Positions 32,810 to 60,238 of a stretch of DNA of 64,000 bases are shown here, piece by piece (position 1 is the stretch's first letter; every line of letters begins with the position of its first letter). Location: assembly GCF_034259325.1 (NCBI RefSeq), contig NZ_JAXIVS010000001.1, positions 186,001 through 250,000 on the forward strand. The letters run 5' to 3'. The notes beneath the pieces were generated by a model. That model saw nothing but the letters and a program-made list of their open reading frames with translations, was not told the origin of the DNA and did not search any database. Position numbers and translations under genes: made by a program. This DNA comes from Hyalangium ruber. GTDB taxonomy: Bacteria > Myxococcota > Myxococcia > Myxococcales > Myxococcaceae.

Positions 32810-33958
32810 CTAGACCGGGCGTACGGCTTGCGCGCGGTCATAGTCCTCCAGGAGCTGGATGATCTCCTCCAGCGAGTCGGTGAGCCGCAGGTAACGCGCG
32901 TAATCCTGGCCCCGGGCGAGCTGCTCCAGCAGCGGGTAGACCGGGCGGGTGTGCGTCCAGAACTCGCGGCCCAGGAAGATCATCGGGCTGATCACGCCCA
33001 CGGAGTTGTAGTGATTCTGACAGGCGTCCTGGAAGACCTCCTGGATGGTGCCCGCACTGCCAGGGGAATAGACGATGCCGCCGCGAGCGATGGTGAGCAG
33101 GCCATCCTCCCGGACACTGTTGGCGAAGTACTTGGCCACGTGGGTGGCGAAGGCATTGGGCGGCTCGTGCCCGTAGTGCCAGGTGGGAATGCCCAGGCTG
33201 GCGCAGGCGGGGCGATCCTCCGAGGCCAGCGGGAACGCCTCGCGCACCACGAAGGCCTGGGCGAGCCACTCGCGGTCCTTGTAGCTGGGAGCCTTGGCGA
33301 GCAGGTCGATGCCGGCGTGCAGCTCCGCCTCGGTACGGCGGGCGAACCACGCGCCCACGTGGGTGGCCTCCATGGCGCCCGGTCCGCCGCCGCTCACCAT
33401 GAAGAAGCCGCGCCGGGTCAGCTCGCGGGAGAGCACCGCCACCGAGTGGTAGTCGGGCTGTCCCCGGAGCATGGAGTGGCCCCCCATGATGGCCACCACC
33501 TTGCGCGGCCCACCCTCGTTCGCCAGCAGCTCCTCCATCGCGTCGGTGACGGCGTGGTCATGCAGCCGCTGCGCCAGCGTCTCCAGGATGGACGGAGGGT
33601 TGGAGCCCCCGTGGTCCTTCCAGTGCGCGTAGATGCGCGCATCCAGCGTCTGGGCGTAGCTCTCGGGCCGGGCGAACTCGAAGCCCGCGTAGAGCTCCTC
33701 CGGCGTGTAGAGGCTGCCCCGGTACGGCACATAGGGCAGCCCCATGAAGGGCGGGAAGACCATGGCCCCATGGGAGAGCGCCGCCTGCAGGGCCTCCTGC
33801 TCGAGCTGGCAGCCCATGAAGGCGCACCCCGCGAGCGGAGCGACGCTCAGCTCCCGGGTGAAGTGCCGCAGGTCCAACCCCTGGATGACCACGTTGGAGA
33901 AGGGCTTGCCACCGCGCAGGTGCCGCTCGAATGCCTCAATGGATTCGATCTCGGTCAT
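32810..33958 (-). CDS. LOG-family (lysine-decarboxylase-like) Rossmann protein
   Basis: 382 residues. The C-terminal 260 residues carry the LOG/TIGR00725-type pattern: AIMGGHSMLRG, SGGGPGAMEATHVGA, and SPGSAGTIQEVF in place of the usual PGGxGTxxE. LOG enzymes release cytokinin-type bases from nucleotide monophosphates; the altered second motif makes activity uncertain. The N-terminal ~110 residues (SNVVIQGLDLRHFTRELS, GCAFMGCQLEQEAL) are an extra domain reminiscent of pentapeptide-repeat strands. It lies 20 bp after the alkyltransferase-like gene, probably in one operon. Confidence 0.8.
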   Translation of the reverse strand: MTEIESIEAFERHLRGGKPFSNVVIQGLDLRHFTRELSVAPLAGCAFMGCQLEQEALQAALSHGAMVFPPFMGLPYVPYRGSLYTPEELYAGFEFARPESYAQTLDARIYAHWKDHGGSNPPSILETLAQRLHDHAVTDAMEELLANEGGPRKVVAIMGGHSMLRGQPDYHSVAVLSRELTRRGFFMVSGGGPGAMEATHVGAWFARRTEAELHAGIDLLAKAPSYKDREWLAQAFVVREAFPLASEDRPACASLGIPTWHYGHEPPNAFATHVAKYFANSVREDGLLTIARGGIVYSPGSAGTIQEVFQDACQNHYNSVGVISPMIFLGREFWTHTRPVYPLLEQLARGQDYARYLRLTDSLEEIIQLLEDYDRAQAVRPV

Positions 33959-33978
33959 GCGCGGATTGTCCCGGCGCC

Positions 33979-34389
33979 TCAGAAGAGGCGCAACTGGGAA
34001 TCTGGGACCGCGGGGGCCCCCTCCTCCTTGGGGAGCATCTGGAAGCCATGGGAGCGGGCCCAGTCCTCGCTCGGCCCGGTCCAGCGGAACTTGCCCAGGT
34101 CCACGAGGCCGCGATCATCGAACTCGACGCCCTCGGCCTCCAGCTTGTCGCGCTGGTGCAGCCCCGAGGTGGTGACGCGCCCCTTGTCCCCCCTGCGCCC
34201 GATGACGCGCTGCCAGGGGACCTGCACCGAGCGGGGCCCCAGCGCCCCCAGCGCCTGGCCCACGGTGGCGGCCTCACAGCCATCCCCAACGATGGTGGCG
34301 ACGTCCCCATAGGTGGCGACCTTGCCTTTGGGGACCTGAGAGATGACCTGGTAGATGCGCTCGTAGTGGCGCTCGTCCTGGGGCTGCAT
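33979..34389 (-). CDS. Alkyltransferase-like protein (ATL), MGMT family
   Basis: 136 residues from ATG 34389. The MGMT DNA-binding core is clear (IYQVISQVPKGKVATYGDVA, VGQALGAL). The active-site PCHRV is PWQRV, with Trp59 in place of the alkyl-accepting Cys. Such ATL proteins bind O6-alkylguanine without repairing it and hand lesions to nucleotide-excision repair. The C-terminal tail of about 45 residues is longer than in minimal ATLs. It is upstream of, and probably co-transcribed with, the LOG-family gene. Confidence 0.88.
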   Translation of the reverse strand: MQPQDERHYERIYQVISQVPKGKVATYGDVATIVGDGCEAATVGQALGALGPRSVQVPWQRVIGRRGDKGRVTTSGLHQRDKLEAEGVEFDDRGLVDLGKFRWTGPSEDWARSHGFQMLPKEEGAPAVPDSQLRLF

Positions 34390-34428
34390 GACGGCTCCTC
34401 TCGGCCGGAGGCAGGCCCCGGCCGGATG

Positions 34429-34482
34429 GGTGGTAGTGGGTTGTGCCTCTAGCACACTACCACCTGGGTTGGGTGTCAACCC
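34429..34482. terminator. Two adjacent inverted repeats between ATL and hydrolase genes
   Basis: GGTGGTAGTG (34429-34438) pairs perfectly with CACTACCACC (34455-34464). GGGTTG (34466-34471) pairs with CAACCC (34477-34482), the latter overlapping the hydrolase stop codon. Neither is followed by a T-run, so they could end transcription by structure or be operator-like. Confidence 0.4.
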
Positions 34483-35303
34483 CGAGAGGCGCCGAACACC
34501 TCCTCGGCCAGCGCGTAGGTGTCGCGCTGCGAGGGGTGGAAGCCTGGACGGAAGTACTCCACGAAGATGGCCACGGCCCGAACGGCCATGCGGTTGGGCC
34601 CGAACAGCAACTCCTTGAGATCCTTCCAGGTTTGCTTGCGCCACAGCAGGCCCTCCTGCCGCAGCAGCATCACCAACCCCACGCCGATGAAGCCGGCCAC
34701 CACCAGGGCGCCCAGCAGGGCCCCCACCATACGCAGCAGGTAGGAACGGCGGGTGGCCATCAGCAGATCGAACGCGAGCGACTTGTGCTCGATCTCCTCG
34801 GCCGCGTGCCACTCCCAGGCCTCGGCCATGGAGGGCTCGGCGCCCCGCATCATCTTCCCGGAGAGGATGATCTCCGCCAGCAGCGCCGTGAGGTGCTCGA
34901 AGCCGGCGATGGTGGCCACGCACAGGAGCATTCCCAGCCGCCGCTCGAACCAGTGGCTGAAGATGTGCTCGCAGACATTGAGGTAGCGATCGATCTGGTA
35001 GCCCTGCTCCCGGAGGTTCTGCAGGTACTTGGCGTGGACGAACGAGTGCGTCGCCTCCTGGCCCATGAAGCCGCGGATCTGCCGCTCGAAGTCCGGATCC
35101 TTCAGGTGGGACAGGCGGCTGCGCATCACCCGCCCCATGAAGTCCTCGAAGGACACCACGAACAGGTTGATGGCGTTGAAGAAGTGGGTGCGGACGGGAT
35201 TACCCGCCAGCCAGTGCCTGGGAATGGAGTGTGGGAACGAGAACGCCGTGCGCCGAGGGCGTACGTTGTCCGGATCGAGCGGACGATGCTCGAAGCGGGG
35301 CAT
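34476..35303 (-). CDS. PF10118-type metal-dependent hydrolase (ferritin-like diiron fold)
   Basis: 275 residues from ATG 35303. It matches the COG3687 family: HSIPRHWLAGNPVRTHFFNA near the N-terminus, then helices with FMGQEATHSFVH, GFEHLTALL and EWHAAEEIEHKSLAFD. These are the Glu/His sets expected for a helical diiron site. Two hydrophobic segments near the C-terminus suggest membrane association. The reaction is unknown. It lies 151 bp after the 35455-41177 operon on the same strand and could be its distal member, giving that set three potential diiron proteins. Confidence 0.75.
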   Translation of the reverse strand: MPRFEHRPLDPDNVRPRRTAFSFPHSIPRHWLAGNPVRTHFFNAINLFVVSFEDFMGRVMRSRLSHLKDPDFERQIRGFMGQEATHSFVHAKYLQNLREQGYQIDRYLNVCEHIFSHWFERRLGMLLCVATIAGFEHLTALLAEIILSGKMMRGAEPSMAEAWEWHAAEEIEHKSLAFDLLMATRRSYLLRMVGALLGALVVAGFIGVGLVMLLRQEGLLWRKQTWKDLKELLFGPNRMAVRAVAIFVEYFRPGFHPSQRDTYALAEEVFGASRG

Positions 35304-35454: not shown

Positions 35455-36063
35455 TCAAGCCACCGCGAGTGCCTTCTGGTGGATGATCACCCAGAAGTCC
35501 GCGGCCCTGCGCGCGCCCTCCAGCAGCACCTCGGCCTGTCCCTGCCCCAATTGCTGGCAGAGAGCGCGCGCCCGGGCGCCGTGCTCCAGGTCCGCGTCGA
35601 GGTGGACGAGGATGAAGCGCGACTGGCCCCGCTGCAGGCCGAGCTGCCCCAGGGCTTGCCGCGCCCCACCCTGGAGGTGGCGCGCCACCCCCTCCAGGAC
35701 GATCAGCGCGCCGAGGAACGCGAGTTGACGCTCCGCCCCAATGGCCTCCCAGAACGCATGGAAGTCCGCCACCTCGAGGGGCGTCCCTGCGGAGGGGGTG
35801 CGCCCGAACGCGGCGAGGTCGGCCTTGGCCAGGCGGTAGTGCTCCTGCTCGTCGCTCGCCAGCTCCGCGAAGAAGGACTTCAGCTCGGGGAGCGTGGCGC
35901 GGCTGGCCGCCAGCCGCAGCCGGTCTCCGCTGCGCGAGGTGTAGTGGTACATCATGTCCAGGAAGGCCACGTACCGCTCGGTCGTGACGGCGGGCAGCCA
36001 CTCCTGAACCCGCCGCGCCATGCCAACGGTGAGTTCTTCCAGCGCATCCAAGGTCGACGACAT
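35455..36063 (-). CDS. Heme-oxygenase-like diiron protein (HDO family)
   Basis: 202 residues, all-helical. It has an E-x(2)-E-H-type segment (ELASDEQEHYRLAK), a conserved central helix (FWEAIGAERQLAFLGALIVLEGVA) and a late His/Asp/His helix (FILVHLDADLEHG). These are the ligand positions of heme-oxygenase-like diiron oxidases such as UndA, and of TenA-fold relatives. HDO enzymes carry out oxidative decarboxylation, N-oxygenation and C-C cleavage in natural-product pathways. Its start is 2 bp after the stop of the CapA-like gene, so it is the last gene of the tight operon. Confidence 0.75.
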   Translation of the reverse strand: MSSTLDALEELTVGMARRVQEWLPAVTTERYVAFLDMMYHYTSRSGDRLRLAASRATLPELKSFFAELASDEQEHYRLAKADLAAFGRTPSAGTPLEVADFHAFWEAIGAERQLAFLGALIVLEGVARHLQGGARQALGQLGLQRGQSRFILVHLDADLEHGARARALCQQLGQGQAEVLLEGARRAADFWVIIHQKALAVA

Positions 36064-36065
36064 CT

Positions 36066-37295
36066 TCAGCTCCTCCGATCCGGAATCAGCGCTCCCAGGG
36101 TCCGCCGCGCGTGGGCGAGGTGGAGCGCGGCACGCTCGGGCTCCAGCTCGTCCAGGGTCACCACTCCGGCGTCGAGGAAGCCCTCGCCGCGCAGGCCCCG
36201 GCCGCACACGGTGGGCACCGCGCTCAGGTCCACGGGCTGGAGCTGTCCCCGCGCATCGCGCGCAAGCGCGAGCTTCAGCACGGCCCCCGTCTGACAGGCC
36301 CGCGTGGGCATGATGCTCAGGAAGTTGCCCAGCGAATACGCGATGAGGCCCATGCGCGAGGGCCCGCCTCGGCGCGCCTGCGTGGGACAAGTGGGGTCGG
36401 CCCCGTCGATGGACACCCACTCGATGGGCTGGAGCACGTGAGGCGAGGTGCCCAGGATGATGTCCGCTCCGCGCTCGATGAGCCACCGGGCGTGCTCGCG
36501 CTGGGGCGCCTCGGGCCAGTACTCGTACTCGAAGCCCCAGTGAGGCATGAGGACCACCAGATCCGGCCCCACCGCGCGGGCGGCATCGATCAGCGCGCCC
36601 AGCCGCTCCCAGTCCGGGGAGTGTCGGGGACTGCCCAGGCGTGCCACCGGCACCCCGGCGGGCGGCGGGCCCGCGAGGTGGTTGATGTCATACGTCACGG
36701 CGGCGATGCCGATGCGGACCCCGGCGACCTCCAGAGAGGCCACCGCATCCTCCGGCGCGCTCCCGCCCACACAGCGGTGCTCTGGCCGAGCCAGCACGCT
36801 CTCACGGGTCTTCGCGAGCCCCTCGGGGCCCTGGTCGAGCGCGTGGTTATTGCAGAGGGAGAAGACCCGGTGGCGCGCCGTACCCTCCCAGGCATCCAGG
36901 TACGCGGGCGGCGCGTTGTAGTGGAGCGTCTCGTAGACCCAGCGGGGCACCGGGCGGGTCGGGTCCACGGGGGTCTCCAGATTGGCGAAGGCCACATCGG
37001 CTCCCGCCAGGAGCGAGCGGACTCCCGGTGAAAGCGCACGGTGGAAGCCACTGCGGATCCACATCACGTCCCCCACGGCACGGAGGTGGAGCATGGGGTC
37101 GGCGGCGTGCCGCCAGCTCCCCGAGGCCCGGTGGCGCGCGACCCTCGCGAAGTGCTCCGCGTCCTCGGCCCGGCGGGGCTCGGGCACATGCAGCAGGCTC
37201 TTGGTGATGTAGCGGAGGTTGAGGTCCCACCGGGACAGGGGCCAGCGGCCGTCCTCGTAGCGGATGTCCGTATAAAGGTGGCGCAGAGGGCTCAT
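36066..37295 (-). CDS. CapA/PgsA-like metallophosphatase-fold protein
   Basis: 409 residues from ATG 37295. From residue about 75 it follows the CapA family: LRAVGDVMWIRS, ADVAFANLETPVD, SLCNNHALDQG, VLMPHWGFEYEYWP, GADIILGTSPHVLQP and AYSLGNFLS. These are the metal-ligand blocks of a calcineurin-like fold. CapA proteins are linked to poly-gamma-glutamate export, but many act in other pathways. There is no membrane anchor or signal here, which suggests a cytoplasmic hydrolase or ligase role within this operon. The start overlaps the desaturase stop by 4 bp. Confidence 0.8.
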   Translation of the reverse strand: MSPLRHLYTDIRYEDGRWPLSRWDLNLRYITKSLLHVPEPRRAEDAEHFARVARHRASGSWRHAADPMLHLRAVGDVMWIRSGFHRALSPGVRSLLAGADVAFANLETPVDPTRPVPRWVYETLHYNAPPAYLDAWEGTARHRVFSLCNNHALDQGPEGLAKTRESVLARPEHRCVGGSAPEDAVASLEVAGVRIGIAAVTYDINHLAGPPPAGVPVARLGSPRHSPDWERLGALIDAARAVGPDLVVLMPHWGFEYEYWPEAPQREHARWLIERGADIILGTSPHVLQPIEWVSIDGADPTCPTQARRGGPSRMGLIAYSLGNFLSIMPTRACQTGAVLKLALARDARGQLQPVDLSAVPTVCGRGLRGEGFLDAGVVTLDELEPERAALHLAHARRTLGALIPDRRS

Positions 37296-38263
37296 GGGTT
37301 CTTTCGCTCCAGGGTGACCAGCCGGACGTCCTCGTCCACCAGGGAGGGGCCGGCGCGAAGGGCGCTCCACATGACCTGGAGGTAGCTGTCGAAGACGGGG
37401 GCACCTTGCGCGAGCAGGACGGGGCGCAGGCGCGCGTGGAGCCTCGCCAGGTTGTAGCCGGGCACGCGGGGGAAGAGGTGGTGGTCGAGGTGATGGTTCA
37501 GCCCGTTCCAGAGGAACGTGACGAGGCGGGTGCTGCGCACCGTGGTGGCGGTGTGGAAGCGGCCTCCGCGCCAGACGTTGGCGTGGTGGTCGGAGATGGA
37601 CTTGAGGCCGTTCAGGGGGCTGGCGAAGAGCACGGGCACGAGCCAGCACTCCACCGCCACGCGGACGAGCCCATGGTCCGCCAGAAGCCAGAAGAGGCCC
37701 GTGTAGAAGACGGCGTACCCCAGCAGCACGCAGACATGGCGGCGCAGGCGAGCCCGGTCGAAGTGCTGCACGGGATAGAGGACGTTGAAGTAGACGAGGC
37801 TGAGCGGAATGCCGAACAGCACAGTGGCGTAATAGAGCGCGCTCAGCCCGAGCGAGCGGCGCCCGGCGTTGTAGGCATCCGGGTCCTTCTCGGTGCGGTT
37901 CCACCGGTGGTGGGCGAGGTGGTCATGCCGCATCGGCTCGTAGGCGATGCCCACGAGCAGGCTGAGCAGGTTGCCGAAGAGGCGGTTCTGCCAGGACTTG
38001 GGAAAGAGGTTCTCGTGCCAGGCATCGTGGTCGAGCTGGATGAGGCCCATCACCGCCCCACCCGCCAGCAACCACAGCGGCACCTTCGCCCACAGGCTCT
38101 CGACCTGGACGAGGGCCAGGGCCGCCAGGAGCCACACGCCCCCGTGGAGAACCCCCATGCCTACGGCCCGAGCGGGGCGGATGCGGAGCAGCTCCACGAG
38201 TTCGGGGCGAGACAGGCCCAGCCCGACGGGCACGGAGGAAACAGGAGAGAGGGTGTTCGACAT
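37292..38263 (-). CDS. Membrane fatty-acid desaturase/hydroxylase
   Basis: 323 residues with four or more hydrophobic segments. The three His boxes of integral diiron desaturases are present: HDAWHE (79-84), HDHLAHH (113-119) and NHHLDHHLFP near 258. It would insert a double bond or hydroxyl into a fatty-acyl or carotenoid-like chain at the inner membrane. It is the fourth gene of the tight operon; ATG 38263 is 6 bp from the preceding stop. Confidence 0.88.
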   Translation of the reverse strand: MSNTLSPVSSVPVGLGLSRPELVELLRIRPARAVGMGVLHGGVWLLAALALVQVESLWAKVPLWLLAGGAVMGLIQLDHDAWHENLFPKSWQNRLFGNLLSLLVGIAYEPMRHDHLAHHRWNRTEKDPDAYNAGRRSLGLSALYYATVLFGIPLSLVYFNVLYPVQHFDRARLRRHVCVLLGYAVFYTGLFWLLADHGLVRVAVECWLVPVLFASPLNGLKSISDHHANVWRGGRFHTATTVRSTRLVTFLWNGLNHHLDHHLFPRVPGYNLARLHARLRPVLLAQGAPVFDSYLQVMWSALRAGPSLVDEDVRLVTLERKNP

Positions 38264-38269
38264 GGCTCG

Positions 38270-38881
38270 TCAGAGGTAGCGGGGCACGCGCTGGAGGTAG
38301 CGCCCATAGGGCTCGCCGAGCCGGGTGGAGAGGTAGCGCTCCTCCTGGAGGACCAGCGCATGGAACAGCCCTCCGAGGGCGGCGAGAGCCCCGAGGGTGA
38401 GCAGCGAGGGAGCCCAGAGCGAGGCCCCCACGAGGTACAGATAGGAGAACACGTAGATGGGGTTGCGCGAGTACCGGTGGAGGCCGCGCTCGTGCAGGGA
38501 GGGCTGCTGCTCGCCGGCATCGACGCCGATACGAAACGCCGGGCCCATGCCGTACTGAGCGCAGAGCATGCCCAGAAGCCCTACCCCACCGAGGAGCCAG
38601 CCCGCGAGCGGAGGCAGGGAGAACAGCGGCCTTCCCCACGGCGAGGTCCACCACGCGGGCCAGAGCGCGGCGGCGATGATGGAGCCGGCCCAGACGAGCG
38701 AGGCGCCGCTGATGAGCCGGGTAACACGTGTGTGGGAGGGGTCCGCCTCGGTGCTCCGGTAGGCCAGCGGGCTCCTCCCGAAGCGCAGGCGGTAGAGAAG
38801 ACTCGACCCCAGGTGCCCCAACAGCAGGTGGAGCGAGATGAAGCCCAGGTAGAGCCCGGGCGCCTCGTGGATCGCCTTCAT
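38270..38881 (-). CDS. Isoprenylcysteine carboxyl methyltransferase-like membrane protein
   Basis: 203 residues with about five membrane helices. The ICMT/PEMT signature is near the C-terminus: HRYSRNPIYVFSYLYLVG and a terminal EERYLSTRLGEPYGRYLQRVPRYL-type block. Members methylate carboxyl groups or phospholipid head groups using S-adenosylmethionine. In a bacterial lipid-like operon it may make a methyl ester or act on a head group (inference). It shares ATGA with the acyltransferase gene upstream. Confidence 0.83.
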   Translation of the reverse strand: MKAIHEAPGLYLGFISLHLLLGHLGSSLLYRLRFGRSPLAYRSTEADPSHTRVTRLISGASLVWAGSIIAAALWPAWWTSPWGRPLFSLPPLAGWLLGGVGLLGMLCAQYGMGPAFRIGVDAGEQQPSLHERGLHRYSRNPIYVFSYLYLVGASLWAPSLLTLGALAALGGLFHALVLQEERYLSTRLGEPYGRYLQRVPRYL

Positions 38882-40152
38882 GGCCCGACCACCTCCACGG
38901 GCAGGCTCAGCGCCGAGGAGGCCCAGCCCGCCAGGCGCTCGGTGAAGCCTCGCAGCGCGTCTCGACTCCAGAGTCCCTCGAAAGTCGCCGGGTTGATGCA
39001 GAGCGTCTCTCCAAAGGAGAAGCCGGTAGCGCCCCAGGTAGGCGTGTGGCTGCGCAAGGAGCGGATGCGAAGCGGCGACTGCTCGAAGTGCCGGTCCAGC
39101 CGGCCCAGATAGGTCACCACCAGGGTGTTGGTGCGCGGCTCGGCGAGCAGGCCGGGACGCGCGTTCCGCCGGAGCACCTGACTTGGGGCGAGTCGTGCCA
39201 CCGCCATGCACTCCAGCGCCGTGGTCCAGTGGATGCCCGCGTCGAGCACGCGCTGGATCTCCGAGCGCGCCAGTTGGATCAACCCTTGGGGATCCTCCAA
39301 GCGGGCACGTACCTCGCTCAAGGGAAGCTCGATGGGCACGGCGGAGCAACCATTCCCCAGGATCCGCCCCAGGCCCAGGGAGCGTCGCAGGTCCACGGGC
39401 ATGCGCAGGCGTACCCTCCCCTCCTTCCGAGGCTCGTGCAGTGCTACCCCGGCGAGCAGGGCCGCGAAGAAGACATCGGACGGAACCAGATCCGAGCGGC
39501 CAGCCGGGATGCGCAACCGAACCGTGGTCATGAGCGAGGGGCCCGCGACATCCCCGCTGCGCTTCAATCCCATCCCCCGCGGCGCCAGCAACCGCCGCCG
39601 GGGGCTCGCCAGGCCGAGGAGCTGTTCGGGCCGTCGGAGCGCCGCGAGCAGCACCCTTCCATCCGTGAGCCGCGAGGGAGCGAGCGGACTGGACTCGGAC
39701 GCGCGCCCAGCGCAGTGCAGCCAGAGCCGCTCCAGCAGGTGCCCGAGCGCCTTGGCATCCCCGATGGCGTGGTGGAGCTGGACGCCCAGCATCCACGCTC
39801 CCTGTGAAGCGTCCTTCATGGGATGGAGGTGAAACCGGAGCGGCAGCTCCCGCGCCAGGTCCATCCGCGTGTTGATCACCCGTGCCACGGCCTCCTGCTC
39901 GTCCAGCGGCTCGGAGGTTTCGAGCACGGCCGCATCCACCTCGGCGGAGGGCCTCGCGACGGGCACCCACTCACACCGGGCATCGTCCCAGGCCACGTTG
40001 AGGCGCTCGCTCTCACGCACCAGCGCACGCAGCCCCTGTCGCAGGGCCGCCACGTCCGGCCGCTCCTCGAGGCGCAGCAACACCGTGGCCCAGATGGTGG
40101 CCACCTCGCCGTCCAGGCGCGCCATGAGCGTGTCTACGAAGTTCGCGCGCAT
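38878..40152 (-). CDS. Condensation-domain/wax-ester-synthase-like acyltransferase
   Basis: 424 residues from ATG 40152. The HHxxxDA catalytic motif is present (HHAIGDA; His127, His128, Asp132), followed by the two-lobed CAT-like fold expected of stand-alone condensation domains, PapA-type and WS/DGAT acyltransferases. A late strand, NTLVVTYLGRLD, fits the floor-loop region. It is expected to join an acyl-CoA or carrier-bound acyl group to an alcohol or amine. It overlaps the 3' end of the upstream gene by 19 bp. Confidence 0.75.
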   Translation of the reverse strand: MRANFVDTLMARLDGEVATIWATVLLRLEERPDVAALRQGLRALVRESERLNVAWDDARCEWVPVARPSAEVDAAVLETSEPLDEQEAVARVINTRMDLARELPLRFHLHPMKDASQGAWMLGVQLHHAIGDAKALGHLLERLWLHCAGRASESSPLAPSRLTDGRVLLAALRRPEQLLGLASPRRRLLAPRGMGLKRSGDVAGPSLMTTVRLRIPAGRSDLVPSDVFFAALLAGVALHEPRKEGRVRLRMPVDLRRSLGLGRILGNGCSAVPIELPLSEVRARLEDPQGLIQLARSEIQRVLDAGIHWTTALECMAVARLAPSQVLRRNARPGLLAEPRTNTLVVTYLGRLDRHFEQSPLRIRSLRSHTPTWGATGFSFGETLCINPATFEGLWSRDALRGFTERLAGWASSALSLPVEVVGP

Positions 40153-41177
40153 CGATCGCTCCACCCGGAGAAGAGAAGCTGGGCGTCCTGCCCTGCCAGC
40201 CGGGCCTGCCCCACCGCTGCGCACGCCACCTGAGCATCCGCGATGTGCTGGAAAACGATCTCGTCCGGCTCGTGGTGGCGCAGGCGAATCCCCGTCGGCC
40301 GGTATCCCGCCGCCAGCAGCGCGGAGGTGCCCTCGGACACCAGGCCAGCCTCGCCCATGGGCAGATGAACGAGATCCACCCGCGCACGAGAGGACTTCAA
40401 CCCTGGCTCTCCTCCTCCCCGTCCGACGAACAGGCGCCGTTCGAGCTGCAGCGATTCATTCCAGTCGAGCGGACGCAGCACGTAGCGCTCAGTGCCCCCG
40501 TGACCACGCTCCATCGGAACCTGAACCGCGGTGTCCGAGAGCCCCAGGCCCGCGAGGATGGACAGCAGCCAGTCGCCCCAGGCTCCCGAGGGCAGGTAGC
40601 GCGTGCGCTCGAGCGGCCCTCCGAGGAGGGTCGTCATGGCCAGGGCTTGCATGGGGACACCAGAGCCCTCCACTCCGATCAGCCTCTCGCCACGCGTGTA
40701 GTCGACGACCAGTCCCACGGGCACGGCACGCATGAACCGAGAGGCGTACCGCTGCGCCATCAGGTGGAGGGTGGAGGTGTTCTGGTGCAGGAAGCCCACG
40801 TGGTTCTTCAGCCTGTCGAGCACGTACTCCCACGCGTGAGCGTGCTCGGCGCGGTCCCCAGCCACGCGACGAGAAGGCCGGCTCAGGGAGAGTCCCGAGT
40901 CGACGGAGTCTCGGCCCGGCGTGACCCAGAGCCCCGTGTGCGAGAGCAGCGTCCCCCGCGCGTCGAACTGTCCCAGGCTGATCAGCCTGCCAGCGCTCCA
41001 GAGGCGCGAGGCTCCCCCCGGCTCATAGAGGAAGGGATAGGAGTAGCTGTCGCCATAACGCGCCTGGAGGAGCGCGCGAAAGGCGGGCTCGTCGCCCTCG
41101 CTCAGCCAGCGCGAACTCTCGGTGGGATTCGCGACTCGGAGATCGTCCAACAATGAAGCAGTGCAGTCCCGGCCCAT
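40134..41177 (-). CDS. Unknown protein, possibly GNAT-like, first gene of operon
   Basis: 347 residues from ATG 41177 (an in-frame TTG at 41189 is an alternative). It is soluble, with mixed alpha/beta sequence. A strand pair (AGRLISLGQFDARGTLLSHTGLWV) followed by a helix (HAWEYVLDRLKNHVGFLHQNTSTLHLMAQRY) resembles the core of a GNAT acetyltransferase, but the acetyl-CoA loop is not clear. I do not recognise the family with confidence. It leads a set of genes that overlap or nearly touch, so it probably takes part in the same pathway. Confidence 0.65.
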   Translation of the reverse strand: MGRDCTASLLDDLRVANPTESSRWLSEGDEPAFRALLQARYGDSYSYPFLYEPGGASRLWSAGRLISLGQFDARGTLLSHTGLWVTPGRDSVDSGLSLSRPSRRVAGDRAEHAHAWEYVLDRLKNHVGFLHQNTSTLHLMAQRYASRFMRAVPVGLVVDYTRGERLIGVEGSGVPMQALAMTTLLGGPLERTRYLPSGAWGDWLLSILAGLGLSDTAVQVPMERGHGGTERYVLRPLDWNESLQLERRLFVGRGGGEPGLKSSRARVDLVHLPMGEAGLVSEGTSALLAAGYRPTGIRLRHHEPDEIVFQHIADAQVACAAVGQARLAGQDAQLLFSGWSDRCARTS

Positions 41178-41330
41178 GCCCCAGGGCAATGCACCCTTGG
41201 GGCCAGTCCGAAAGCCCTCGCGACGCCGCTCCCCGAGGGTCCGCGCTTGCGCAGACCCTCACTCACACTGTGTAACCTCATGCACGGCTACTCCTCCACG
41301 CCATGCACAAGCAGCCACCTCCGGCCCGCG

Positions 41331-42839
41331 TCACTCGATGCCGTACTTGCCCGGGGCGAGGATGCCTTGCGGGTCCAGGGCCTTCTTGATCCGCGAGAGC
41401 ACCTCGGGCACCCCCTGCAGGCGCGCCATCACCTCATCCTGAACGTCGATCGGAGCGCGCGCGACGGGGTAGCCCGCATCGGCATAGGCCTGGATGAGCG
41501 CCCGCATACAACGTCCCGCGCGCTGTCGCTCCTCGGACTCCTGACGGTTGAAGATGAGGAGGTGCAGCGCCCGGCTCATGCGCGGGCCACAGGCGTATTC
41601 GAGGATCAGGTCGAAGCCGTGCTCGGCCAGGATGCGCCGCGACAGCGCCTGGTGCTCGTTGGCGACCCGCCCCACCATGGGAGTGGCCGGCAGGAACCAG
41701 GCGGCTCCGCCTCCCGGCCGCCAGCGGAGCAAGCCGAGCTCGTCCCGCGTGGGCTGTCCGCTGAACGTGTCGATGTGGATCTTCAGGATCCGACTCTTCT
41801 CCGCCTCGGCATGGGAGATGTAACGGGCCTTGCCGGACTTGAGGAAGTGGGCCTTCACCCGCTCGATCAGCGGCTGCACCGCCTCCTCCGTCGCGCCGTA
41901 GAAGGCGCCGGAGACAATCCACGCGCCAAGCCCGTGCTTCTCCCGCAACTCCTTGCGCAGCTCGGCGGACAGCGGCGTCCGGCCTCCCGTCCGGCCAAAG
42001 GGATAGGTCTCCTCCGTGCCGACCGCGTAGAGGTCCCCTGTCACCTTGAGGAGCGTGGGCACCACGTTGTTGAGCTTGATCGGCCGGACCAGCTCGAAGA
42101 TGTCCCCTAAGTCTTCATCATCCGGGAACGAGAAGAAGAAGGAGCGGACCACCGGCGGCCGGGGCATCAACCAGACGCCCATGCGCGTGACGATGCCCAG
42201 GTTCGACTGGATGAAGAGCCCGTCGAGGAACGGACCGTAGCCATACTTGGACAGGTACTGCGTCTGGGAGCCCGGCAGGGCGCCGTCGGAGGTCCGCACC
42301 ACCTCCCCCGTGGGCAGCACCACCTCGTAACCACAGCTCATGCCGAAGTGATCGAAGTAGGGGCTGTAGCCCGCGCCCTTCTCGAGCGTGTTGCCCAGGA
42401 TGCCTCCCTCCGGAGGCCCCGAGGTGGTGTCCATCATCAGCTTGTGGCCACGCCGGCCCAGCTCCTCGTACATCTGGGCGTAGGTGACACCGGGCTCCAC
42501 CACGGCGTAGGCGAGCGACTCGTTGATCTCGACGATGCGGTTCATCCGCCGCCCCAGATCCACCACCACCTGCCCCGGGCGCACCGGCGACTTGTACCCC
42601 AGGCCCCGGTTCTCGCCCGTGCTCAGGGGCCAGAGCTTCACACCGTGGGTATTGGCCGCCCGCACCACGGTCTGCACCTCCTCCGTCGAGCCCGGGTAGA
42701 CGACGCCCGAGGGGAGCCGATCCCCCCCTGGGAGCAGGTTGGCGCCGTAGCGCGCCAGGGTCTCGGGCGCCGTGTCCACCGCCTCGGGGCCGAGGCGCTC
42801 ACGCAGCGAGGAGAAGAACTGCTGAGAGGTAGAGGTCAT
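41331..42839 (-). CDS. VAO-family FAD oxidase/dehydrogenase (4-cresol dehydrogenase-like)
   Basis: 502 residues from ATG 42839. The N-terminal PCMH-type FAD domain is clear: GVVYPGSTEEVQTVVRAAN, WPLSTGENRGLGYKSPV, VDLGRRMNRIVEIN and EPGVTYAQMYEEL. The C-terminal cap fits p-cresol methylhydroxylase/vanillyl-alcohol oxidase (HIDTFSGQPT, and the final ALDPQGILAPGKYGIE). It is likely to oxidise a para-substituted phenol or similar alcohol. Candidate residues for covalent flavin attachment cannot be assigned by eye. It diverges from the glycosyltransferase gene with about 100 bp between starts. Confidence 0.85.
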   Translation of the reverse strand: MTSTSQQFFSSLRERLGPEAVDTAPETLARYGANLLPGGDRLPSGVVYPGSTEEVQTVVRAANTHGVKLWPLSTGENRGLGYKSPVRPGQVVVDLGRRMNRIVEINESLAYAVVEPGVTYAQMYEELGRRGHKLMMDTTSGPPEGGILGNTLEKGAGYSPYFDHFGMSCGYEVVLPTGEVVRTSDGALPGSQTQYLSKYGYGPFLDGLFIQSNLGIVTRMGVWLMPRPPVVRSFFFSFPDDEDLGDIFELVRPIKLNNVVPTLLKVTGDLYAVGTEETYPFGRTGGRTPLSAELRKELREKHGLGAWIVSGAFYGATEEAVQPLIERVKAHFLKSGKARYISHAEAEKSRILKIHIDTFSGQPTRDELGLLRWRPGGGAAWFLPATPMVGRVANEHQALSRRILAEHGFDLILEYACGPRMSRALHLLIFNRQESEERQRAGRCMRALIQAYADAGYPVARAPIDVQDEVMARLQGVPEVLSRIKKALDPQGILAPGKYGIE

Positions 42840-42943
42840 GGCGGAAATCCTGCCCCATCTGGAGCGGCCGGGGGCATCTGCCCTCCGGTGCCACAGGCTG
42901 TCGGACGCGAGCGAACACTTCCATGTAAGGTGCCGCACGATCC

Positions 42944-44446
42944 ATGCGCCGGCTCCTCCACAGCGCGCGAGCGTTCCACACGCGGCACCCCGTGGCGCTG
43001 GGCGTCCTCGGCACGTTCCTGCTCAGCCTGCTGCTGCGCCTGCTGTACCTCCAGGCCTCGCTGGACCGGGACTGGCCCTTCTCCATCTTCTTCTATGGAG
43101 ACACTCGCTTCTTCCACGGCTACGCCCTGGACCTGGCCCGGGGCAAGCCCGTGGAGGCGACCCTGCCCTACCACCCGCCGCTGTTCCCCGCCTTCCTCGG
43201 GCTGCTGTACCAACTGCTGGGAGAGCCACGCGGCAGCGCGTTCCCCTACAAGCTCAGCCTCGCACTGCTGAACTCCGCCACGGTGGCCTTCACCTGGGTC
43301 TGGTGGCGCCGGGTGCTCGGCACGGGCTGGAGCCTGCTCGCCGCCGCGCTCTTCTCCGCCAGCTTCGGGTGGCTGGTGCTCTCGACGACGTACAGCAACG
43401 AGGTGCTGTACGTGCTCTTCCTGTCCGCCACGTGCTGGCTGGTGCTCCAGTCCCGACAGGGGCTGGCGTGGTGGGCCGCCGCGCTGCTCGGCGCGGTGAT
43501 GGGGTTGGGCTCCCTCACCCGGGCCGAGCACCTGTACCTCTGGCCCTTCCTGCTCGCCTATGTCGCCTTCCACCGCGATCGCCAGGTGCCGTGGAAACCC
43601 CAGCTGGCCCGCTGGGCGGTCGCGGTGGCCGTATGCTTCGCGGTGCTGGCGCCGTGGAGCGTCCGCAACGCGCGCGTCCTCCGGGAACTCAACGCGCGCA
43701 CCCCCGCGCTCAAGCCGCTCCCGGAGCTGACGCTCGTCACCGCCTACGGCCCCATCAACTTCGCCATGGCCAACCACCCCCGGGCCACGGGCGGCTTCAC
43801 GCCGGACCTCGTCAACGAGCTGGGCAAGGGGGGCAACCTCGACGTGGCCAACCCCGCCCAGCGCCACCTGCTGCTGCACGGCTACGCCGAGGGCCTGCGC
43901 TGGATGGCCGAGCACCCCGGCGACGCGGCGGGACTGATGATCGACAAGCTGGAGCGCTGGCAGGACGGCCTCGGCCTGGGCTTCGGCGTGTCGGACTGGC
44001 CCTCGGGGCTGCGCGGCGCCCGGCCTCCCGTGGACCTCTTCGTCCCCGAGTCCACCTGGCTCAAGTGGCCGCTCACGCTGCTGCTGCTGCTCGGGGCGGG
44101 CCTCTCCCTGCGCGCGCCCTACCGCGCCTTCAGCCTGTTCACCCTCGTGATACTGCACCGCGCGCTCATCACCCTGGCCTTCTTCGGCTACGCGCGCGGG
44201 CTGTTCGTTCTCTACCCCGCACTCCTGCCGCTGCTGCTGCTGCCCGCGATGGCGCTCGCCTCGCGCCGCCCTGCCCTGGAGCGCCGGCTGCCCGTCCTCG
44301 CCGCCGCGGCCCTCCTCCTCTTCTGGCTCGAGGCCGGAGTACACGCGGCCGGCGAGCCCCGGAACTTCCACGCCAGCGGCAGCACCGACCAGGTCCGCGG
44401 CAAGCTCATCCAGGACGACTGGGTACAGATCTGGCCGAAAAGTTGA
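42944..44446 (+). CDS. ArnT/PMT-like membrane glycosyltransferase
   Basis: 500 residues with 10-12 hydrophobic segments. The N-terminus shows the GT-C pattern: after helix 1, a periplasmic loop with an acidic pair (FFYGDTRFFHGYA) and ATLPYHPPLFPAFLGLLY, like ArnT/PMT and family-39-type enzymes using polyprenyl-phosphate sugars. A large loop (about 240-340) and a C-terminal helical bundle follow. It probably transfers a sugar on the outer face of the inner membrane. The acceptor is unknown. Confidence 0.8.
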   Translation: MRRLLHSARAFHTRHPVALGVLGTFLLSLLLRLLYLQASLDRDWPFSIFFYGDTRFFHGYALDLARGKPVEATLPYHPPLFPAFLGLLYQLLGEPRGSAFPYKLSLALLNSATVAFTWVWWRRVLGTGWSLLAAALFSASFGWLVLSTTYSNEVLYVLFLSATCWLVLQSRQGLAWWAAALLGAVMGLGSLTRAEHLYLWPFLLAYVAFHRDRQVPWKPQLARWAVAVAVCFAVLAPWSVRNARVLRELNARTPALKPLPELTLVTAYGPINFAMANHPRATGGFTPDLVNELGKGGNLDVANPAQRHLLLHGYAEGLRWMAEHPGDAAGLMIDKLERWQDGLGLGFGVSDWPSGLRGARPPVDLFVPESTWLKWPLTLLLLLGAGLSLRAPYRAFSLFTLVILHRALITLAFFGYARGLFVLYPALLPLLLLPAMALASRRPALERRLPVLAAAALLLFWLEAGVHAAGEPRNFHASGSTDQVRGKLIQDDWVQIWPKS

Positions 44447-59474: not shown

Positions 59475-59768
59475 ATGTGGATCGAGGCGATCGTCATGCC
59501 CCGGGAAGACTCCAAGCCCTACCGCCCTTCGCCCCAGCGCGACCGCCGTGCCGTGTACCAGTCCGGTTGTGACGAGAGCCTGCGCTTCCGCGACTCGGTG
59601 CTGAACTACCTGCAGAGCCAGAAGCTAATGGGCGCGGTGAAGTGGGTCAGCGAGCCGGGCTCCCTCCCCATGGTCACGCTGCACTGCCACGAGGGTGTGC
59701 TGGAGCAGCTGCGTCAGGTGCCCCAGTTCGAGGCTGGTCGCTCGGCTGCTGTCCAGATGGGCTTCTGA
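59475..59768 (+). CDS. Small unknown protein, tandem paralogue 1
   Basis: 97 residues from ATG 59475, preceded by GCGGAGGG. It is nearly identical to the next gene: the central block from PSPQRDRRAVYQ to the VSEPGSLPMVTL strand is the same. The fold looks like a small alpha/beta unit (a helix, RFRDSVLNYLQSQKLM, then strands around KWVSEPGS and VTLHCHEGVLEQLRQV), perhaps ferredoxin-like. No family was recognised. The duplication and the retained ribosome-binding leader suggest that dosage or pairing matters. Confidence 0.7.
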   Translation: MWIEAIVMPREDSKPYRPSPQRDRRAVYQSGCDESLRFRDSVLNYLQSQKLMGAVKWVSEPGSLPMVTLHCHEGVLEQLRQVPQFEAGRSAAVQMGF

Positions 59769-59941: not shown

Positions 59942-60238
59942 ATGTGGATCGAGGCGATCGTCATGCCCCGGGAGGACTCGAAGGCGACCTGGCGCCCTTC
60001 GCCTCAGCGCGACCGCCGTGCGGTGTACCAGTCCGGCTGTGACGAGAGCCTGCGCTTCCGCGACTCGGTGCTGAACTATCTGCAGAGCCAGAAGCTGATG
60101 GGCGCGGTGAAGTGGGTCAGCGAGCCGGGCTCCCTTCCCATGGTCACGCTGCGCTGCCAGGAGCGCGTTCTGGAGCGGCTGCGCAAGGCGCCCCAGTTCG
60201 AGGCCGGTCGTTCCGCGGCCGTCGATCTGCACGCCTGA
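59942..60238 (+). CDS. Small unknown protein, tandem paralogue 2
   Basis: 98 residues from ATG 59942, preceded by CGGAGGGTTG, like the leader of paralogue 1. It starts with the same MWIEAIVMPREDSK and differs mainly at AT/PY after SK, at QERVLERLRKA versus HEGVLEQLRQV, and at the C-terminus. The near-identical DNA in the middle implies a recent duplication or gene conversion. The function is unknown. The PAS histidine kinase gene begins 52 bp downstream. Confidence 0.7.
   Translation: MWIEAIVMPREDSKATWRPSPQRDRRAVYQSGCDESLRFRDSVLNYLQSQKLMGAVKWVSEPGSLPMVTLRCQERVLERLRKAPQFEAGRSAAVDLHA

Follow-up and report, generated by a model that had tools for sequence, protein, structure and literature searches.

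A compact and mobile six-gene operon of the Myxococcaceae with an unusual set of predicted biosynthetic enzymes

Six genes on the minus strand of a 64,000-nt stretch of DNA from Hyalangium ruber (the window, i.e. the whole stretch that was analysed) lie packed between positions 35455 and 41177. The encoded enzyme families raise the question whether these genes (A-F) constitute one functional unit, where such a unit ends and what kind of product it might make. Re-examination left the original prediction of six packed minus-strand genes unchanged, with all frames, the gene order, the strand and the coordinates correct. Gene A (40134..41177) overlaps gene B (38878..40152) by 19 bp, and B overlaps gene C (38270..38881) by 4 bp. 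A gap of 6 bp separates C from gene D (37292..38263), which overlaps gene E (36066..37295) by 4 bp, and 2 bp lie between E and gene F (35455..36063). The ATG of the next minus-strand gene, G (34476..35303), is found 151 bp downstream of the block, and gene H (41331..42839), also on the minus strand and encoding an FAD-linked oxidase, lies on its other side.

The family labels proposed earlier hold for C, D, E and F, which Pfam supports, and G was matched as well (Metal_hydrol, PF10118, E 8.1e-67). The 347 aa protein encoded by A matched no Pfam family. Its structure model has a mean pLDDT of 49.7 and is well modelled in the last third only; the C-terminal ~80 residues of this low-confidence model resembled GNATs with Z scores of about 4-5. 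Given the low pLDDT the fold assignment is tentative, and we tentatively regard the C-terminal half of A as weakly GNAT-like. A relationship to viral proteases was dismissed, as the PDB sequence matches had E values of 0.46 or worse and were taken as chance. For B, a candidate condensation/PapA5-type acyltransferase, comparison with the Condensation family (PF00668) yielded E 4.2e-7 and 29.5 bits against a gathering cut-off of 30.6. The protein carries the motif HHAIGDA, as opposed to HHxxxDG in the family, with H127, H128 and D132 invariant in 15 orthologues. The C sequence matched PEMT (PF04191; E 2.8e-8, 34.6 bits, cut-off 25) and stayed below the cut-off of the ICMT-proper equivalog NF040696 of NCBIfam (29 bits, cut-off 160); its RNPIY and EER motifs are invariant among orthologues, and we describe it as a membrane methyltransferase of the PEMT/ICMT type. 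D is a membrane diiron desaturase/hydroxylase (FA_desaturase, PF00487; E 9.1e-35, 121 bits, cut-off 29.7) with the His boxes HDAWH, HDHLAHH and NHHLDHH, whose histidines (H79, H83, H113, H115, H118, H119, H258, H261 and H262) are kept in all of 14 orthologues. The family match and the three boxes are shared with FADS-like enzymes such as DesA, CrtR and GntB of guanitoxin; D differs from the named FADS-like equivalogs in that none of them gives a score above about 40 bits, far under the cut-offs.

E belongs to the CapA/PGA_cap group of calcineurin-like metalloenzymes (PF09587; E 2.3e-45, 155.5 bits, cut-off 27), and its metal-site residues D76, E107, N150, H151, D154, H252 and H286 are invariant among orthologues. 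A relative of CapA, MslH, is the epimerase of a lasso peptide (PMC10406935). Over the metal site, E retains the equivalents of Asp11, Glu44, Asn87, His88, Asp91, His259 and His295 of MslH, and thus both His/Asp catalytic dyads and three of the four Ca ligands tested (Glu44, Asn87, His259 and His261). The fourth, His261, is replaced by Gly254 in all E orthologues, which makes E a CapA-like protein rather than an orthologue of MslH. The score of E against the NCBIfam MslH model was 28.7 with a cut-off of 700, and A-F encodes neither a lasso precursor nor a cyclase. Instead of an epimerase, E could be a phosphatase or a structural protein. F matched Haem_oxygenas_2 (PF14518; E 8.6e-20), and its model (pLDDT 88.9) has a seven-helix heme-oxygenase fold. 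The structural matches comprised Sden_3740, an uncharacterised Shewanella protein (Z 19.7), and the heme-oxygenase-like diiron enzymes (HDOs) CADD (18.3), HrmI (16.8) and UndA (15.5), the known HDOs aligning over about 195-201 residues. E67, E72, H75, E124 and the H154-x3-D158-x2-H161 stretch of F are invariant in 15 orthologues and provide a candidate 3-His/3-carboxylate ligand set, with H-x3-D-x2-H on the last ligand helix and either E67 or E72 as ligand on the first. F thus has the fold and the residues expected for the 3H/3C diiron site of HDOs (UndA, CADD, BesC, HrmI, MboA); however, it is about 20% or less identical to the solved members, and its partner genes differ from those of all characterised HDO clusters found.

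Searches across genomes revealed that the six genes occur together. Close orthologues of A and B are present in the same 27 of the 147 genomes of the class, which represent six genera of one family, with identities to the window proteins of mostly 63-69% for A and 71-76% for B. Among 195 genomes of the phylum, F was detected in the same genome set, plus one weak partial match elsewhere, and full-length matches of E were confined to this set, all others being distant CapA paralogues or a fragment. D was found in 26 of the 27 genomes, the missing one being fragmented; outside the operon the 195 genomes contained no D orthologue at E 1e-20. A search of 84,980 species genomes from bacteria and archaea found relatives of B in Myxococcaceae only, namely Corallococcus, Myxococcus, Pyxidicoccus, Archangium, Hyalangium and one further genome of the family. 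The operon is missing from several genomes of the Myxococcus group. Comparison of 25 loci from other genomes showed the order A-B-C-D-E-F in every intact locus, and hence conservation beyond close strains, across six genera; a loss of gene order outside close strains had been named in advance as the result that would speak against the operon. The spacings of the block (35455..41177) are likewise kept, mostly to the base (-19 or -31/-40, -4, 6-7, -4 and 1-2); the few larger gaps between C and D reflect the start codon picked by the gene caller. Since the same six genes recur with near-identical spacings in every intact copy, the arrangement is conserved far beyond chance. Purifying selection acts on each of the six genes, with dN/dS values of 0.17-0.36 for the two most diverged pairs, estimates from closer pairs being noisier. 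Because they occur together, in one order, and move as a block, the six genes almost certainly work together, probably in making a small molecule that is oxidised and carries acyl and methyl groups. The view of A-F as one functional operon is strongly supported by a conserved block, co-occurrence, purifying selection and joint movement.

Two genomes contain partial copies or fragments. Corallococcus sp. CA053C has two partial A-B copies (L087 and L169); in one, ~3 kb of inserted DNA separates the piece of A from that of B, in the other A is split over two frames, and the operon of this genome looks broken or duplicated. In genome G057 a lone fragment of E (L074:414-626; 71 aa, 69% identical) lies ~7 kb from the intact operon; this isolated fragment is possibly the relic of an earlier copy.

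Where the unit ends can be read from genomes that lack it at the window's site. G and H lie on the same strand as A-F, 151-153 bp away from it in the window, which might suggest a larger operon that takes in both the FAD oxidase (H) and the ferritin-like metal hydrolase (G). In four close relatives, however, G and H are neighbours at a distance of ~165 bp with A-F absent between them, and neither these two nor other neighbours from the window lie beside A-F in any of the 25 other loci, where the flanking genes differ in almost every genome. The larger operon therefore has next to no probability. The adjacency of G and H without A-F identifies the metal hydrolase as a neighbour and not a member; of the original prediction, its presence 151 bp from the block stands, its assignment to the unit does not. 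One of the four relatives, G078, is empty at this site and has A-F at a different place in the genome. Beyond the edges of the block, the DNA of different loci stays similar for mostly ~120-190 bp on the upstream side of A and for 35-70 bp past the end of F. These comparisons show A-F to be one unit of selection and transfer with a leader of ~150 bp and a tail of ~35-70 bp of its own. The genes around it belong to an older, conserved neighbourhood, which is interrupted by A-F. Collinearity with relatives of genus g8 covers positions 32810-35303 and 41331-44446 of the window, which encode a 382 aa protein, an MGMT-like protein, the metal hydrolase, the FAD oxidase and a membrane protein.

The operon and its host genomes have different histories. 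The operon DNA of genomes G094 and G078 is 98.9% identical at an rpoB identity of 91.3%, and for Archangium violaceum Cb vi76 and Corallococcus llansteffanensis the values are 98.7% and 91.6%. Conversely, Corallococcus genomes with rpoB sequences 97-99% alike carry two operon types that are only 83% alike. The operon tree conflicts with the rpoB tree, and a single Corallococcus clade was rejected (p-AU 3.6e-61). Operon identities of up to 98.9% between genera, against ~91% for rpoB, imply that the block moved horizontally; A-F has been transferred between genera as one predicted transcription unit, leader included.

The flanks were also inspected for a means of this transfer. At four type-I loci from three genera (L069, L071, L073 and L079; genomes G114, G078, G109 and G059), a tRNA-Arg(CCT) gene is located on the 3' side of F, 50-250 bp from the operon end. 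This proximity suggests island-type exchange at these four loci. Mobility through tRNA islands alone was rejected, as most other loci have no nearby tRNA; at two further loci (L076 and L083) tRNA-Arg(CCT) lies 2-4 kb away from the operon. Carriage by a transposon or integrase was rejected as well: the 25 most frequent families listed for 117 nearby proteins included a single IS66 transposase, and among these families no mobility gene was common to the loci. A role in anti-phage defence was also set aside, PADLOC having matched none of the six genes.

A mobile and patchily distributed unit that consists of modifying enzymes only, with no enzyme that builds a scaffold, could also serve to inactivate toxins or antibiotics of foreign origin, or to degrade a compound of the prey. 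However, six dedicated steps that include acyl addition and desaturation would be unusual for resistance or catabolism, and neither a transporter nor a regulator is encoded. B was unmatched in 72,556 plasmids and D gave distant plasmid hits, those listed being <30% identical, which argues against plasmid carriage of A-F as well as against detoxification or catabolism; we consider such a function very unlikely.

The leader of the operon contains a putative promoter. An element CTGGCC...TGCATTGC directly before A is kept in all three sequence groups. In the window it corresponds to CTGGCCCCAAGGGTGCATTGC (41186..41206, minus strand), a sigma54-like GG-N10-GC sequence with 9 of the 11 consensus bases of the -24/-12 site, a fit equalled in 2.4% of shuffled leaders; the same element precedes A in 21 of 24 loci scored. 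Further upstream, TGTGCA/GTGCA and GTGCAG half-sites (41263..41310, minus strand) form a possible activator-binding dyad; the half-sites are strong in the other groups and weak in the window's own copy. In genome G076 the sigma54-like element is degraded, with both the -12 GC element and the upstream dyad missing, and in Archangium violaceum Cb vi76 (G046) the -12 GC is changed; these two cases render the assignment of a sigma54 promoter tentative. The operon of G076 (L083) lies 69 bp behind another gene, which gives it the look of being transcribed from this neighbour's promoter. Control of myxobacterial natural-product genes by sigma54 is documented (PMC7910581). A search of the leaders for half-sites of the activator Nla28 detected none except one distant site. 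In the tails, a hairpin plus T-run of an intrinsic terminator was not consistent across loci.

What the unit makes has to be approached through its enzyme families. From these we infer the chemistry of A-F, including a product of the lipid type (a fatty-acyl ester or amide carrying modifications). Acyl groups from cellular acyl-CoA or acyl-ACP would be moved onto an amine and/or a hydroxyl by A, as a GNAT-like protein, and by B, with its condensation fold. F, soluble in the cytosol, and D, in the membrane, would perform two separate O2-dependent oxidations of a fatty-acyl or amino-acid part, with desaturation, hydroxylation, N-oxygenation and C-C cleavage as candidate reactions. The CapA-type E may contribute acid/base chemistry or a hydrolysis, either epimerising an intermediate or taking off a phosphate-type group, and C may methylate a carboxylate, an amine or a hydroxyl at the membrane. 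Such a short pathway, fed by acyl-CoA/ACP plus an amino or fatty acid, would lead to a small lipid-like product that may stay bound to the membrane or leave by diffusion. As the weakest step of this proposal, the sigma54-like element may provide activation under particular conditions, e.g. starvation. Fatty acids and amino acids are the main substrates of those HDOs whose role is known (PMC13108848). For each of F, E and D there are relatives that use amino acids or peptides besides fatty acids, which keeps the lipid-type product a proposal. None of the six genes encodes a carrier protein, ligase, PKS/NRPS, scaffold synthase, regulator or transporter, and the absence of carrier, ligase, PKS/NRPS and transporter points to a product that is probably small and lipid-like. 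A cluster built on PKS/NRPS or ATP-grasp genes was not found, nor was any neighbour common to the loci.

The same enzymes might instead modify a lipid already present in the membrane, lipid A or the cell wall; the differences between strains would then stem from pressure that phages or predators exert on the surface. The membrane enzymes C and D, the PGA_cap protein and the acyltransferases are compatible with such a modification of the envelope, as is the patchy, mobile distribution, and C weakly resembles a model of the Leptospira lipid A 1-phosphate methyltransferase. This match, however, is far under the cut-off, the known relatives of the HDO F belong to small-molecule pathways, and the flanks contain no consistently linked envelope gene, which makes an envelope operon unlikely. 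We regard it as likely that A-F is a self-contained, horizontally moving transcription unit encoding one specialised small-molecule biosynthetic pathway. The further idea of a portable, carrier-free cassette, in which the diiron enzymes F and D, a CapA epimerase/hydrolase and two acyltransferases produce acylated small molecules of a new class, which predatory myxobacteria exchange as a chemical trait, is a possibility about which we are rather doubtful.

A comparable system is the mbo operon for mangotoxin, a six-gene operon with the HDO MboA and a redox partner (PMC13185094). Both are compact sets of six genes with an HDO, and in mbo a small metabolite is made without PKS/NRPS (PMC13185094). 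In contrast to mbo, which has ATP-grasp ligases and an amidinotransferase, A-F has neither and instead encodes acyltransferases, a membrane desaturase, a methyltransferase and a CapA protein. In agreement with the original prediction, no described pathway with this gene set was found in the literature searched, which took in few subscription journals; a survey of clusters conserved among myxobacteria mentions neither a desaturase nor an acyltransferase. We rate A-F as an uncharacterised mobile biosynthetic operon that is compact, unusual in its enzyme set and clearly mobile. Cluster finders that seek PKS/NRPS cores would probably overlook it. An undescribed set of enzymes whose members are found only together, borders marked by natural empty sites and a recent spread between genera make it a clean target for a new metabolite, and a route to assigning chemistry for an HDO, a CapA protein and an orphan desaturase.

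Elsewhere in the window, two adjacent small ORFs (59475-59768 and 59942-60238) encode nearly the same protein of 97-98 aa (MWIEAIVMPREDSK...), apparently as a tandem duplicate.
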